DNA from: a virus
Length of the DNA stretch: 24,022 nt
Reading direction: 5' to 3' (one strand)
IMG/VR virus record: IMGVR_UViG_3300044645_000254
Span: 1 to 24,022 of that record
In this document: piece after piece, positions 9,864 through 23,606 of the stretch
How the letters are laid out: each line of letters starts with the position of its first letter
Position numbering within the stretch: the first letter of the stretch is position 1
Made by a program: the position numbers and the translations under genes
The notes under the pieces: model-generated
What the model saw: only the letters and a program-made list of their open reading frames with translations
Databases searched by the model: none
Told to the model about the DNA's origin: nothing

Positions 9864-10340
9864 TTATTGTTGCGAGCGAAGAATTGCTAGGATGTCCTCT
9901 TCGGATGTTGCTTGGGACATTCTGTATTCAATATCGTTTGCTCGGTCTGGCGTCAAAGCATTTTGTGTAACCATGTCTTGATTGCGCAATGCTGCGCGGT
10001 CATGTTGGCTCACATCTGACTCTTGTGCAACCGTTAGTCCGAACAAGTCTGCATTATCATCAAGCCAGTTAGAAACTGACTCCTCGTTAATGTCATCCAA
10101 GTCCTTCATTACTAAACGGGCTGCCTTAAGATTGACGCCCTTCTTTTCTAGTGTCGACTTGACAATTGACTCACGTTGTGCCTTGGAGAAACCTTCAAGT
10201 TGCTCTGTAAGTTCTTTGATACGCTTCTCGTCTGCACGCTTGGCTTTACGCAACTTTTTAAGTAAGTCGCTTCCATCCATCGGTGCTTCTTCGATTGTAT
10301 CTAGGTCATCGTCTTCGTCGTCCCAGTAGTTGTTGCTCAT
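9864..10340 (-). CDS. Scaffold-like capsid assembly protein
   Basis: The 158-residue protein lies directly before the capsid gene. The N-terminus is very acidic (WDDEDDDLDTIEE), followed by a Lys/Glu-rich coiled coil at about 26-58 (LLKKLRKAKRADEKRIKELT...), a compact helical part, and a C-terminal helix ending ILAILRSQQ. Acidic N-terminus, coiled coil and position before the capsid gene are the usual marks of scaffolding proteins, which fill the procapsid and are lost or digested before packaging. It may therefore be a substrate of the Ntn-hydrolase encoded upstream. AAGGGTGG precedes the ATG. The gene is separated by 122 nt from the upstream gene and 35 nt from the capsid gene. Confidence 0.78.
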   Translation of the reverse strand: MSNNYWDDEDDDLDTIEEAPMDGSDLLKKLRKAKRADEKRIKELTEQLEGFSKAQRESIVKSTLEKKGVNLKAARLVMKDLDDINEESVSNWLDDNADLFGLTVAQESDVSQHDRAALRNQDMVTQNALTPDRANDIEYRMSQATSEEDILAILRSQQ

Positions 10341-18704: not shown

Positions 18705-18914
18705 CTAGAAATCTCGTTTAATGTAATTATATTCTCGTCCGCCTTTGACGTCTTCGCCAGTAACACCCATAATGAAAGCATCGCGGTCATCTATTGACTT
18801 CCAAGGGATTAACGCAAGTTCAAATACTATTCCTGCATTTTGATAGCCAAGTGAAGTTGCAAACTTGTCTACATTATCAAAGAAACTGCCAGGCATGAAT
18901 GTTACATCTGCCAT
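18705..18914 (-). CDS. Small 69-residue protein of unknown function
   Basis: The product is MADVTFMPGSFFDNVDKFAT... with a short aromatic N-terminus, a central FELALIPWKSIDDRDAFIMG segment and a basic end (REYNYIKRDF). It is probably a small globular alpha/beta protein; no motif is recognised. The ATG overlaps the stop of the 153-residue gene (TAATG), and its own TAG stop runs into the AGGAGGT ribosome-binding site of the giant gene, so termination and re-initiation are close together. Position implies a minor head component or assembly helper. Confidence 0.72.
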   Translation of the reverse strand: MADVTFMPGSFFDNVDKFATSLGYQNAGIVFELALIPWKSIDDRDAFIMGVTGEDVKGGREYNYIKRDF

Positions 18915-19375
18915 TATTGTGCCATTAAGTAGTTAACGAAACGCTTAAATGAATCTGGTGCATCCTTAGACTGTGCAGCAATTACCAAGTCTGGTAGATA
19001 TTGCTTTGCAAGCATCGCATTCTCGTCTGGACGAGTGTTGTTCTGCATTCCCTTAGGAAGTGCTTCTGAGCCTGCACCACGGAAACCGTCTACACCTGTA
19101 GTCATTGGTTCCATTGGGTTAGGGTCTGGGTCAAATAATGTACCAAGTTGTGGGAAATTCATCCCAGCATAAGGTTCTGATGGTGCTGAAACATCTGATG
19201 CTTTAATAGATTTCACTGCTTGATTACCTGCCACACGGTCTTGGTTAATTGCTTTATTTTGTCCATAGGCAAAGCCTGTATAGTTGCCACTTTGTCCAGC
19301 GCCGCCCGTACCTGAAACGTTGGCTGGATTATACTGTGGTCCACCGTTGGCGCCACCACGATTCTCTACAGCCAT
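18914..19375 (-). CDS. Gly/Asn-rich, largely disordered protein of unknown function
   Basis: The 153-residue product has an N-terminal ~45 residues rich in Gly, Asn, Gln and Tyr (NRGGANGGPQYNPANVSGTG), almost surely disordered. A Pro/Met-rich centre follows (FDPDPNPMEPMTTG), then a C-terminal helix (KQYLPDLVIAAQSKDAPDSFKRFVNYLMAQ). It has a clear AGGAGG ribosome-binding site and follows the protease by 8 nt. A disordered body with one folded helix would suit a scaffold-like or portal-binding adaptor, or a protease substrate; this is inference. I know no named family. Confidence 0.75.
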   Translation of the reverse strand: MAVENRGGANGGPQYNPANVSGTGGAGQSGNYTGFAYGQNKAINQDRVAGNQAVKSIKASDVSAPSEPYAGMNFPQLGTLFDPDPNPMEPMTTGVDGFRGAGSEALPKGMQNNTRPDENAMLAKQYLPDLVIAAQSKDAPDSFKRFVNYLMAQ

Positions 19376-19383
19376 TGTTCCTC

Positions 19384-19950
19384 CTACTTAAATTGTTTAA
19401 ATGTATGAATTGGTTCAGAGCACATGTTATCGTATTGAATTGCAATAGCAATTGCTTTACGAATCATTGTCTCTGCTTGATTAACTGTCTTTACTTTTTC
19501 CACACCCAACGCTGCCAATGCACCGAGGGCGACATCACCACCGCTACCCATAACATATACATTACGAACATCGGTATCCCAAGAGTAATCATCAGAAATC
19601 GAAAAAACTTGACCCTTAATGGATACGAGGAATCCACCTTCGTTTTGCGCAACATCGCCGTCCTCTTTCATATCAATACCTGCATCTACAAAGTTCTTAC
19701 GCATCTGCGGAATGAACTTCTGTGTCATGTAAGTATTCAAATCTTCTTTTACAGTTGGCTTAGGTTGCACATAGCCGTAATGTAACACGTTACTTGCGCG
19801 AGATGAACCACATCCAGCAATCAACACACCATTGTTTTCTACAATCTTTGGTGTTTTGCTTACTTGAAAGCGCCCATTGTCGTCGCTTAATCGGGAATCA
19901 CACCCTAGTACCGACCATCCGTCACCCTGGATTGCTACTAGCGTAGTCAT
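19384..19950 (-). CDS. Proteasome/HslV-like Ntn-hydrolase (putative head-maturation protease)
   Basis: The 188-residue protein has the hallmarks of proteasome beta/HslV threonine proteases. The start Met-Thr-Thr-Leu-Val has no propeptide, as in HslV, so Met removal would expose Thr as nucleophile. GCDSR gives an Asp at mature position 17; a Lys follows at mature 34 in SKTPKIVE (alternative 31); LIAGCGSSR matches the Gly-47 loop; and VMGSGGDVALGALAALG matches the conserved SGG helix. It lies 1 nt behind the portal gene (TAA-A-ATG, with AGGGGA), exactly where most tailed phages encode the prohead protease, and I see no other protease here. It may cut scaffold or capsid precursors. No unfoldase ATPase is in the window, so ATP-dependent degradation is not supported. 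Confidence 0.88.
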   Translation of the reverse strand: MTTLVAIQGDGWSVLGCDSRLSDDNGRFQVSKTPKIVENNGVLIAGCGSSRASNVLHYGYVQPKPTVKEDLNTYMTQKFIPQMRKNFVDAGIDMKEDGDVAQNEGGFLVSIKGQVFSISDDYSWDTDVRNVYVMGSGGDVALGALAALGVEKVKTVNQAETMIRKAIAIAIQYDNMCSEPIHTFKQFK

Positions 19951-19951
19951 T

Positions 19952-21733
19952 TTATCCCCTAGTTGTTACTCGTCCCGTTGCTTTACCACTACCACTGAGG
20001 GTAGATAAAATTGTTTGAATGTCTGGTGCTGGTTCTGCTGGTGGCATACCCATCATGCCTGCTTCTGGTGGAAGGCCTCCTGCTGGAGCCGCGCCTGGAA
20101 CAGGGGACGGCTGCTCAACAGGGGAAGGTGCAGCCCCAACAGGAGGAACTTGTTGCTCAGGAGCAAATGCTTCTGCAACAGCGTCTTCAAGAGTTGTACC
20201 CTTTTGACGAGCAGTAATAACTCCCGCAATCTTAGTTACGATAGATGCTGGGTCTCCGCCTGAGGTAGCCATTGCTGGAATAGCCTGAGCCATTGCAGTA
20301 ATACCACCAAGGAGTGATGCACGCATACTTTCAATTTCAATCTTTTCAAGTTCTTGTGTTACGTTAACTGTAAATGGCAGTTCACGCATAGCCATATCCT
20401 TAGAGATAAGACCGCCACCTAGAGCCTGTAGCATAAAAATAAGTCCCTGTGCTGGGTTAAGACCCGCAAGCATACCATAACGCACATCTGCAGAGAAGTC
20501 GCCCTTGATGTCTCTTGATGGTTTGTATGTAATTTCGTATGGAGAACCAGAGTCTACGCCACGAATGGTCTTTTCTTCTGGATACATCTTTTCGTCAATT
20601 TCAAAGCATAGGCTAATGACATCACGTAGTGATGATGCAAAGATTGCCTGTGCTGATTTGACCTGTGTATCAAATGCACCCATGAGTGCTTGTACGCCTT
20701 GACCAGTAACGATGCTTGCATCGATGTTACCTGAACGTCCTTCTGGGTAACGAGTACCTGCACGAAGTTCCTGGTTAAGTAGGTTCTGCTCTGTGAACGC
20801 GCCTGCTGGAATGTTTAATTCGACACGTCGAACGCCAGCAGGGTTGGCGGTACGGATAACCGCATCGCCACCCAACTGGAGTTCTTGTACGTCTTGAGGT
20901 AATACAATTGGTGCTTGAACACTTTTCTCTGCTGCTTCCATTGCCAATAAGGCGAAACGGTTGCGGAGAAGTTGGATACCTAATACGTCGTCGAATTGTC
21001 CACGCAGTTCGCCATCAATCGACGGCTTACGCGCCACGACAACCATCATCTTACCGAGGGGATTAGCCGCGTAAGATAAAACTAAATTCTTTTTGGTTGG
21101 TAAATAAATTAATGATTGGTCCTTATCATAGTACCGAACCATCTCTACCTGTGAATACAAGTCTTGCTTGTATCCGTTAGCGCCAAGTAGTTCGCGCTCA
21201 TACTCGGGGAACTGAGAAACCAGTTCTCCAAGTGTCATTAGATATCGCTTAGCAAATGCAACGCAGCGTCCATAGCGGTCGAATTCTGGGTAAGCCCCAA
21301 TCGGATTTTCTATGCGAATACGCGGCATCTTTGCTTCTTCGTCCAACTCAATCATGAATGGAACGAAACCATATGTTAGATACCAGTCTGCACCTGAGTA
21401 CATTTGTACTGATAGGTCAGAGTGTGAAAAGTAATTTGATGCGATACGGGTACGCTTGTCAGCAAAGGCGCGAGCCTTGTCTGATACAGAGTTTGCAGCA
21501 GAGCAGTTAACTGCAGGGAGTGGAGCCATTACCTCGGATAGGTCGCGTGCTACAACATCAATGAAGTTGGCAACTACGTTAGCATCTACACCATCTGGAA
21601 AGAAGTCAGGGTAAACCTGTGAAATTTGACCCTTACGGACTGCAAGGACATCTTGGTTGCGAGCATCGCGCTCGCTATTACGGTAACGTAACGCTTCAAC
21701 GCGTGCTGCTACCTGTTCCATCGATAATGCCAT
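19952..21733 (-). CDS. Portal protein
   Basis: The ring at the capsid vertex through which DNA enters and leaves. The 593-residue protein follows the large terminase by 7 nt. I start it at the ATG at 21733 (MALSMEQVAARVEAL), with AGGA 6 nt upstream; the frame opens 16 codons earlier but would run into the terminase end. The N-terminal half is mixed alpha/beta with YSGADWYLTYGFVPFMIELD and ENPIGAYPEFDRYGR, typical of phage portals. The middle has a long helix (LLRNRFALLAMEAAEKSV) and GAFTEQNLLNQELRAGTRYPEGRSG. The final ~70 residues are Pro/Ala/Gly/Met-rich and flexible (PPVGAAPSPVEQPSPVPGAA). Family is judged by pattern and position. The length lies within the usual portal range. Confidence 0.92.
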   Translation of the reverse strand: MALSMEQVAARVEALRYRNSERDARNQDVLAVRKGQISQVYPDFFPDGVDANVVANFIDVVARDLSEVMAPLPAVNCSAANSVSDKARAFADKRTRIASNYFSHSDLSVQMYSGADWYLTYGFVPFMIELDEEAKMPRIRIENPIGAYPEFDRYGRCVAFAKRYLMTLGELVSQFPEYERELLGANGYKQDLYSQVEMVRYYDKDQSLIYLPTKKNLVLSYAANPLGKMMVVVARKPSIDGELRGQFDDVLGIQLLRNRFALLAMEAAEKSVQAPIVLPQDVQELQLGGDAVIRTANPAGVRRVELNIPAGAFTEQNLLNQELRAGTRYPEGRSGNIDASIVTGQGVQALMGAFDTQVKSAQAIFASSLRDVISLCFEIDEKMYPEEKTIRGVDSGSPYEITYKPSRDIKGDFSADVRYGMLAGLNPAQGLIFMLQALGGGLISKDMAMRELPFTVNVTQELEKIEIESMRASLLGGITAMAQAIPAMATSGGDPASIVTKIAGVITARQKGTTLEDAVAEAFAPEQQVPPVGAAPSPVEQPSPVPGAAPAGGLPPEAGMMGMPPAEPAPDIQTILSTLSGSGKATGRVTTRG

Positions 21734-21740
21734 TGTTATC

Positions 21741-23606
21741 CTAACTGTATTGTTGTGACCATTGGTCAGCGAATGCGTCATCTAAGTTGATTGCGTATCT
21801 GCGTTCAACCTGAGCGCGGGTCGCCCATCTGTTGCTTGCGTACTGTGATGCTTGGCTTGAGCGTTGCATCATTTCTCTAATGCGAATCACTGCAAACCAT
21901 AAAGCCATAACGACGTCAGTTGGGTTCTTAGTGTCTGGCTTCCAAGTAATGAGTTCTTGTACCAAGGTCTTCAGACCTTCAGAACCTTCGTTACTTGGTA
22001 GTTCAATAATGTTGTTATCCTGGAAACGACCATCGCGGGTATTACCAAAGAGCGTAGCCATAGAAGCCACACCGAAAGAGGTGTCCCACTTGTTCTTACC
22101 AGTAAAGTGTGAATTCAATTGTGTGCCATACCCTGCAAGGAAGTTACGCAAGTTATCATCCAGGGCGTAAGCCTTCTGGTGTGCGTTAATTTCAATACGC
22201 AGTTCTTGCGGTCTGTACTTCTCAACCCAGTCCTCGATGAGGTTTTGAATCTTAGCAGGAGTTGGCTCTGTCATGTTGACAGCATCTAGAACGTAGATAC
22301 GCCCATCTGCTCTGTTGTAGGTACATACCACCGCACCTGTAGCACCTGCCATAGCAGGGTCAAGTCCGATGATGGTGTAACCTTCAACGTGGCTAGGATG
22401 TCCAGGAGCGCCAGGTTTTAGAGGTCCTCTTTTTCGCATTCCGTTGACTGAGCCAGCCACACAGGTTGGAGAGAATATGGAGTCTTCTTGGACGTCTTCT
22501 TGTTGGTAGACCATAGCCCATACAGACGGAGCGACCTCAGAGCGACGCTTAAAGAGCGAGGGTCCATCCCATTTCGGATAAAGTCCATTTTCAAGTATGT
22601 CGTCCAAATCATTTTCTTGCTGGTCAGTTTCTGGCCAGAGGGTTTGCCAATTCTTAGGTTTTTCATCAAACTGCAATACAGCAGGCATAGCACAATATGT
22701 GAAGGGGGTTTTGCCACCTGTCCATTGTGAGCCATCACGTATCATCTTATACAGGTCTACAGAGGCTACACGGGTACCTACAATGATAAGTTTACCGTGT
22801 CGTCCCAAACGGGTTATAACTTCCTTTTGCAACCACTCAATTTGTTTTTCCCACTCATGAGCGTTAGAACCCATCACCACGTCATCTAGGATAATTAAGT
22901 CTGCACGTGCTCCGTAAATCTGAGAACCAAAGCCCAGTGCTTGGACTGTAGGGTCCTTTTCACCTGAGTCACGTCCTGTGCCTAGATAAATCATATCGGC
23001 GGACCATTGTGTTGCGTCCGCCTTGTACCCACCGTTAGGACCGAAAGCGGTCTGTAACTTCATGTAGCCTGGGTGGGAAAGGCGCGTCTTAATAGCGCCT
23101 AGGAACTTGCGAGCCATACCCTGGGTTTTAGAAACGATGATTACTCGCGTATTAGGGTTGGTCACAATCTTGTATGTCACATAGTTAGTTGTGATAGTAG
23201 TTGACTTGGCGTGCTCGGGTGGTACGTTGATGAGCACACGGTTGGGGTCTCCCATCTCGTAGGTCATACCAGGCGGTAGCCAACGAGGGGTATTACCCTC
23301 AATTAGGTCAATCCAGTTCAGTTGGTGGTTAAATAACTTAGAACCAAGGAACTGCTCTGAGAACTCATGGAAAGGCATATCCTTAAGTTCTGCTAAATCC
23401 TGTTTGATGCCCTTGCCTGCAAGGCGGGCTTTATCAGCCTTTTCCTTGAAGTCAGCATCTTGCATAGACCACTGGCGGAAGGCGGTGTCCTGACGGTCCA
23501 CGGCGGCCATAGCGGCTGTAATAGTGGCACCCTGTTCTAGGAGGGCTAGTACTTTAGCCTGTGCCTCGTCCTTACTAAAGGACTGTTTTCCTGCTTTTCG
23601 ACCCAT
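21741..23606 (-). CDS. terL: Large terminase subunit (DNA-packaging ATPase-nuclease) with N-terminal HTH-like domain
   Basis: The 621-residue motor pumps DNA into the prohead and cuts it. The ATPase domain has a variant Walker A, VPPEHAKST (128-136), as in T4-like terminases, Walker B LIILDD (237-242), and a VGTRV coupling motif near 277. The RNase H-like nuclease domain has Asp416 (IIGLD), Glu472 (IEIN) and Asp564 (NPTDVV) as candidate metal ligands. Residues about 12-63 (ALLEQGATITAAMAAVDRQD, then FRQWSMQDADFKEKADKARL) resemble the helix-turn-helix of small terminase subunits. No separate small-terminase gene is seen in the window. The ATG at 23606 has only a weak GGACGGGA upstream. It is the first gene of the block. 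Confidence 0.96.
   Translation of the reverse strand: MGRKAGKQSFSKDEAQAKVLALLEQGATITAAMAAVDRQDTAFRQWSMQDADFKEKADKARLAGKGIKQDLAELKDMPFHEFSEQFLGSKLFNHQLNWIDLIEGNTPRWLPPGMTYEMGDPNRVLINVPPEHAKSTTITTNYVTYKIVTNPNTRVIIVSKTQGMARKFLGAIKTRLSHPGYMKLQTAFGPNGGYKADATQWSADMIYLGTGRDSGEKDPTVQALGFGSQIYGARADLIILDDVVMGSNAHEWEKQIEWLQKEVITRLGRHGKLIIVGTRVASVDLYKMIRDGSQWTGGKTPFTYCAMPAVLQFDEKPKNWQTLWPETDQQENDLDDILENGLYPKWDGPSLFKRRSEVAPSVWAMVYQQEDVQEDSIFSPTCVAGSVNGMRKRGPLKPGAPGHPSHVEGYTIIGLDPAMAGATGAVVCTYNRADGRIYVLDAVNMTEPTPAKIQNLIEDWVEKYRPQELRIEINAHQKAYALDDNLRNFLAGYGTQLNSHFTGKNKWDTSFGVASMATLFGNTRDGRFQDNNIIELPSNEGSEGLKTLVQELITWKPDTKNPTDVVMALWFAVIRIREMMQRSSQASQYASNRWATRAQVERRYAINLDDAFADQWSQQYS

Follow-up and report, generated by a model that had tools for sequence, protein, structure and literature searches.

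A predicted N-terminal threonine hydrolase with a proteasome fold is a dispensable neighbor of the portal gene in a clade of freshwater phages

Introduction

Does a protease gene that directly follows a phage portal gene have to encode the enzyme that matures the phage head? This question was raised by a 24,022-bp virus record (the whole of this stretch of DNA is referred to as the window), in which the gene for a putative N-terminal threonine hydrolase (the Ntn gene) touches the portal gene. The original prediction placed a proteasome/HslV-like threonine protease in the prohead protease position and proposed that it matured the head or digested the scaffold, or that it acted on host proteins. 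PPH and AAH, which are proteasome homologues encoded by Caudoviricetes, were described by Fuchs, Alva and Lupas in 2021, and the genomic context of such phage homologues was found to be uninformative (PMC8665760). The Ntn gene analyzed here is likewise proteasome-like and Caudoviricetes-encoded, but it differs in having an informative context.

Results

The window contained terminase and portal genes, the Ntn gene, g153, g69, a gene for a 1,664-aa protein, two large genes, a scaffold-like gene, and an N4-gp56-type capsid gene. The coordinates of the features that are discussed below are shown in Table 1. The nearest named relatives of the window virus were OX376640 and OX376641, whose portal proteins were 82 to 84% identical and whose capsid proteins were 90 to 91% identical to those of the window. 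These phages are LanE43-AprE7 and LanE43-AprF5 (E7 and F5), which were isolated on "Ca. Planktophila," a member of the order Nanopelagicales (PMC10202952). The two records (L085 and L086) represent the first isolated Nanopelagicales phages, and they are unannotated and filed as "Caudovirales sp. ct2KA10." Streptomyces phages of the Beephvirinae came next, with a portal identity of about 44% and a capsid identity of 55 to 59%. Because phages of Planktophila and Streptomyces were the nearest relatives, the window virus probably infects a freshwater actinobacterium. The clade as a whole consists of podovirus-like freshwater phages, and its isolated members infect "Ca. Planktophila."

Table 1. Positions of the Ntn gene, its catalytic codons, and the head and packaging genes discussed in the text (window coordinates)
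Feature	Position	Strand	Basis
Terminase large subunit	21741..23606	-	phrog_38, E 1.8e-64
Portal protein, 609 aa, immediate upstream neighbor of Ntn	19952..21781	-	phrog_104, E 3e-30
Ntn threonine hydrolase (predicted), proteasome fold, 188 aa, type A	19384..19950	-	Profiles, fold model, residue conservation, dN/dS
Putative catalytic Thr1 codon (residue 2; exposed after Met removal)	19945..19947	-	Invariant, 206/206
Putative catalytic Asp17 codon (residue 18)	19897..19899	-	Invariant, 206/206
Putative catalytic Lys codon, mature position 34 (Lys33 equivalent, residue 35)	19846..19848	-	Invariant, 206/206
Putative oxyanion-hole Gly47 codon (residue 48)	19807..19809	-	Invariant, 206/206
g153, small glycine/proline-rich protein	18914..19375	-	Gene order and sequence similarity
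Probable scaffold, 158 aa, encoded immediately upstream of the capsid gene	9864..10340	-	phrog_7813, weak scaffold-family matches, position
Major capsid protein, N4-gp56 family, 399 aa	8629..9828	-	TIGR04387, 121.7 bits (cut-off 60)

The Ntn reading frame began with Met-Thr-Thr and lacked a propeptide, and the Asp at mature position 17, the Lys at mature position 34, the LIAGCG loop, and the GSGGDVALGAL helix were all found where they had been predicted. In the superfamily, the catalytic triad and the oxyanion residue are Thr1, Asp17, Lys33, and Gly47 (PMC8665760). These four residues, or the equivalent in the case of Lys33, were 100% conserved across 206 homologues with identities down to about 28%, and none of the homologues had lost the Thr, Asp, or Lys. 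The Ntn gene matched PHROG_1040 (phrog_1040, "peptidase HslV family") with an E value of 9.3e-25, and the values for four Ntn versions ranged from 9.3e-25 to 4e-30. The protein also scored 25.0 bits against the Pfam Proteasome family (PF00227; curated cut-off, 22.4), and four further versions likewise scored above the cut-off. As sequence-profile matches, these were far beyond chance. The median pairwise dN/dS value was 0.073, compared to 0.106 for the portal gene, 0.049 for the terminase gene, and 0.197 for g153, which indicated that the Ntn gene is under strong purifying selection, with a constraint similar to that of the portal and terminase genes and greater than that of g153. The start codon lies 1 nt past the stop codon of the portal gene, and an AGGGGA motif of the ribosome-binding type overlaps the portal gene end. 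The gene is real, its catalytic set is intact, and its product appears to be an active enzyme. No match to known defence-system proteins was found with PADLOC.

A search of the PDB with the Ntn protein sequence yielded chance-level matches only, and a fold search was needed for this reason. With an alignment of 29 sequences as input, AlphaFold returned a model with a mean pLDDT of 88 and a pTM of 0.86. When the model was compared to the PDB with Foldseek, it matched HslV (E 4e-11), BPH (TM 0.74 to 0.76), and 20S beta subunits with a probability of 1.00, and it displayed the four-layer Ntn sandwich, as anticipated by the original prediction. Based on the model, HslV and BPH are the closest solved folds. 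The Ntn gene encodes what looks like an active N-terminal threonine hydrolase, with a proteasome fold and membership in PHROG_1040, the phage "peptidase HslV" family.

With regard to subfamilies, HslV (ClpQ) has the fold and the catalytic residues in common with the Ntn protein, but the scores against the HslV equivalogs TIGR03692 and NF003964 (18.6 and 18.9 bits) were far below the cut-offs (157.75 and 137, respectively), the phages lack an HslU-type ATPase, and HslV is absent from Actinobacteria (PMC5666114). HslV proper was rejected on the equivalog scores. The PPH subfamily, which is defined by a length of about 140 residues and the lack of helix H2 (PMC8665760), was ruled out by the length of 188 aa and by a helix at residues 71 to 89, the H2 position. 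The features of AAH and BPH group I, namely, a compact fold with helices H1 to H4, no propeptide, and no insertions, fit the Ntn model. On features and fold, the protein may belong to AAH or to a BPH-like group I. BPH resembles the Ntn protein in its fold, its lack of a propeptide, its acidic loop after helix 2, and its lack of a partner ATPase; on the other hand, the two are only about 16% identical, BPH is a bacterial gene, and ring assembly is a proposal in the case of the Ntn protein. The Ntn protein of DSL-LC01, an Actinomycetia phage, belongs to the same PHROG_1040 family and shares the N-terminal Thr, the lack of a propeptide, and the catalytic set, with an identity of 34%.

To determine how tightly the family is tied to the portal gene, we combined four scans (with the window Ntn protein, an E7-type protein, portals, and a mixed alignment), which yielded 283 Ntn genes in the clade. 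The portal gene was directly upstream in 280 of the 283 loci, at a distance of -43 to +20 bp in 279; these numbers refer to loci and not to independent genomes, since some contigs were sampled repeatedly. The three exceptions were L165, L339, and L027, the last of which is interrupted by the end of its contig. The Ntn genes of the other two (L339:6001-6567 and L165:1064-1609) belong to types A and B and were located away from head operons, among small genes or next to a peptidoglycan-hydrolase-like gene. In the other annotated phages that we examined, the Ntn homologue was also located away from head genes; the PHROG_1040 genes of these phages were found among early or nucleotide-metabolism genes, whereas the window gene is fixed beside the portal gene. 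Thus, the idea that the family always adjoins the portal gene held within the clade, with the exceptions noted, but not for the family at large. A narrower bacterial search produced a single relative (L268:6380-7009), which was 32% identical, had no adjoining portal gene, and was located on a contig that had been assigned to a Gammaproteobacteria MAG.

We also examined a portal-based sample that was drawn regardless of the Ntn gene. The gene was present in 54 loci, absent from 20, and truncated in 5, numbers that are not prevalence figures because the sample was ordered by its similarity to a Streptomyces portal. Loci with and without the gene were closely related in some cases: L211 and L214, which lack it, had a portal identity of 91% to L202, which carries it, and the corresponding value was 93% for L238 (without) and L226 and L229 (with). 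Two contigs of 40.0 and 24.6 kb had no Ntn gene anywhere on either, and they encoded full-length capsid proteins that were 68 and 80% identical, respectively, to that of the window, with a closely similar capsid N-terminus and scaffold. The Streptomyces relatives lacked the Ntn gene as well. Parsimony on a quick portal tree indicated that Ntn presence changed at least five times. Most Ntn-less loci showed the clean gene order portal, small gene, g153, and giant gene, and in the rest g153 directly followed the portal gene. The g153 gene, which was kept in the Ntn-less and Streptomyces relatives, is the conserved right-hand border of this accessory slot. The Ntn gene is therefore dispensable in the clade, an optional extra and most probably not a head maturation enzyme, because closely related viruses do without it.

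The content of the slot varied in two further ways. Three Ntn types, A (the window type), B, and C, were found at the one locus; their mutual identities were about 28 to 40%, and the portal tree required six or more switches of type. In a quick tree with long branches, the DSL-LC01 protein fell into a loose group with types A and C, whereas type B stood apart, and a single origin of the three types had an AU p value of 0.06. In addition, a family of 75- to 86-aa proteins with a basic N-terminus, an acidic C-terminus, and the motif YCIWLHEY...YPDW occupied the slot in 10 Ntn-less loci (L190:5763-5996, L201:2211-2447, L211:2823-3080, L238:5760-6020, and six more), and it was never found together with an Ntn gene (10 loci versus 283). 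The type switching and the mutual exclusion fit replacement within the slot between the portal gene and g153 by recombination between conserved flanks. A second small family of 80 to 85 aa with a GWVLISEW motif was found in 79 loci, all of which carried an Ntn gene, and in none without one. Where inspected (L085:8033-8287 and L229:5091-5336), its gene directly followed the Ntn gene with an overlap of a few base pairs, and it is possible that this protein is a partner or adaptor of the Ntn protein. A portal-side locus that is fixed but dispensable appears to be new for phage proteasome homologues.

The original prediction had noted that no partner ATPase was visible, and this was confirmed for the window. 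Furthermore, Clp/HslU-type AAA_2 domains were absent from nine related phage records, whereas 14 of 14 control genomes were positive. A Pfam "AAA" match in E7 was considered as a phage-encoded unfoldase and rejected, since it corresponded to a DnaB/KaiC-type RecA-fold helicase; no other ORF of E7 or F5 had this Walker-A pattern. The suggestion that the enzyme borrows a host unfoldase now seems unlikely for HslU, because Actinobacteria lack HslV (PMC5666114). The loop that follows helix 2 contained 30% acidic residues, compared to 10% elsewhere in the protein, and was net acidic in all 206 homologues. BPH also has a long acidic loop after helix 2 and appears to be unfoldase independent (PMC8665760). 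Together, the lack of an encoded unfoldase and the BPH-like acidic loop favor a self-assembled, ATP-independent ring.

Discussion

The position of the Ntn gene suggests a prohead protease, housed in the procapsid next to the portal, that would digest the scaffold or trim the capsid protein, and classical prohead proteases (S78, S77, and ClpP-like) share this portal-side position. The late-operon location, the portal gene directly upstream in nearly all loci, and the search for another head protease are consistent with such a role: no S78, ClpP-like, or S77 protease was found in 10 Ntn-bearing and Ntn-less records, although the S77 part of the search panel lacked a strong positive control. However, the classical enzymes have an unrelated fold, and conservation of the Ntn gene does not follow that of the head genes. 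It is missing from relatives with the same portal (91 to 93% identity), scaffold, and capsid protein, and from the Streptomyces relatives, and no head protease of a known family was found in the Ntn-less genomes either. No delta domain was visible at the N-terminus of the capsid protein, which was alike in phages with and without the Ntn gene. The scaffold and capsid proteins of the window and of E7 and F5 were about 90% identical, whereas the Ntn proteins were only about 29% identical. Phage D'Alembert encodes a head maturation protease in addition to its Ntn protein, and in other phages members of the family are found away from head operons, as are two genes of the clade's own types. We therefore consider head maturation, which the original prediction had put forward, to be highly improbable. 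Since none of these was found in the Ntn-less genomes, the capsid seems not to need a head protease of a known family, and the simplest reading is that the capsid of this clade matures without a protease of the S78, ClpP-like, or S77 families. As a separate observation, the capsid protein contained an extra domain of about 80 aa (residues ~250 to 332) that was absent from the 315- to 317-aa capsid proteins of L256 to L258 and was independent of the Ntn gene.

The gene order also brings to mind an enzyme that is packaged in the virion and cuts or accompanies ejection proteins, since the Ntn gene is located between the portal gene and a giant/ejection-type block, with g153 following either directly or after one small gene. 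The candidate substrates would be g153, the giant 1,664-aa protein, and neighboring internal proteins. Against this, the Ntn-less phages retain g153 and a giant protein. The Ntn proteins of E7 and F5 are 92% identical, yet the two phages carry an unrelated 8-kb island in the block (PMC10202952), and L036 encodes a type A Ntn protein that is 90% identical to that of the window but a giant protein that does not match. Coevolution of the Ntn gene with the block was thus not supported, and because these phages share the enzyme but differ in the block, the block is probably not the target; we regard this function as unlikely. A role as a portal or neck assembly factor, interchangeable with the 75- to 86-aa protein for one portal task, would explain the shared position, the perfect mutual exclusion, and the translational proximity to the portal gene. 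Moreover, the near-total tie to the portal gene exceeds what a free-floating accessory gene would need, and it could reflect an assembly role that some lineages have replaced. Nevertheless, L206, L213, L242, L244, and the Streptomyces phages have neither gene, the replacement is too small for such an enzyme, the Ntn protein keeps all of its catalytic residues, and the mutual exclusion may reflect merely one recombination joint, which together make an assembly factor very unlikely. Finally, the superfamily includes a ligase, connectase, and many uncharacterized members (PMC8665760), so the protein might be a different Ntn-type hydrolase or a protein ligase. No two-helix insertion of the connectase kind was visible around the N-terminal strand, though, and HslV and BPH are the closest folds; of all the readings considered, we give this one the least credence.

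We think it probable, with a good deal of doubt remaining, that the Ntn protein is a dispensable accessory threonine hydrolase, encoded in an exchangeable late-operon slot, that forms an unfoldase-independent ring and acts on proteins in the infected cell. In the mechanism that we propose for this accessory hydrolase, the gene would be expressed with the late genes from the slot between the portal gene and g153, and methionine aminopeptidase should expose Thr1 as the nucleophile. Self-assembly would then probably give a ring whose pore loop is acidic, and this ring, needing no ATPase, would act late in infection on proteins that are unfolded or otherwise selected. By elimination, the substrates would be host or phage proteins of the infected cell, with those of the host the likelier. 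Action on host proteins was the better branch of the original prediction, and it is the best remaining guess. The enzyme may serve in amino acid recycling, in the clearance of host regulators, or in counter-defence, roles that the present data do not distinguish. The isolation paper mentions host-protein degradation genes in E7 and F5 (PMC10202952). E7 also carries an ArdA-type antirestriction gene (L085:423-773), in agreement with that paper. A more specific version, which we offer tentatively and consider doubtful, is that the slot is an arms-race locus of freshwater actinophages at which divergent Ntn versions, or the small protein, take each other's place by recombination and that the enzyme destroys host (defence) proteins without an ATPase.

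Phage proteasome homologues have been known from sequence, and their context had pointed to no function (PMC8665760). The clade described here provides a very tight context together with natural pairs with and without the gene at portal identities above 90%. The findings also advise caution, in that a protease gene next to a portal gene need not encode a prohead protease. Because carriers that infect Planktophila (LanE43-AprE7 and LanE43-AprF5) have been isolated, the role of the Ntn protein could be tested in viruses of a very abundant freshwater bacterial order. Phage enzymes of this kind were known already; what is new is the setting, which is unusually regular and lends itself to testing.
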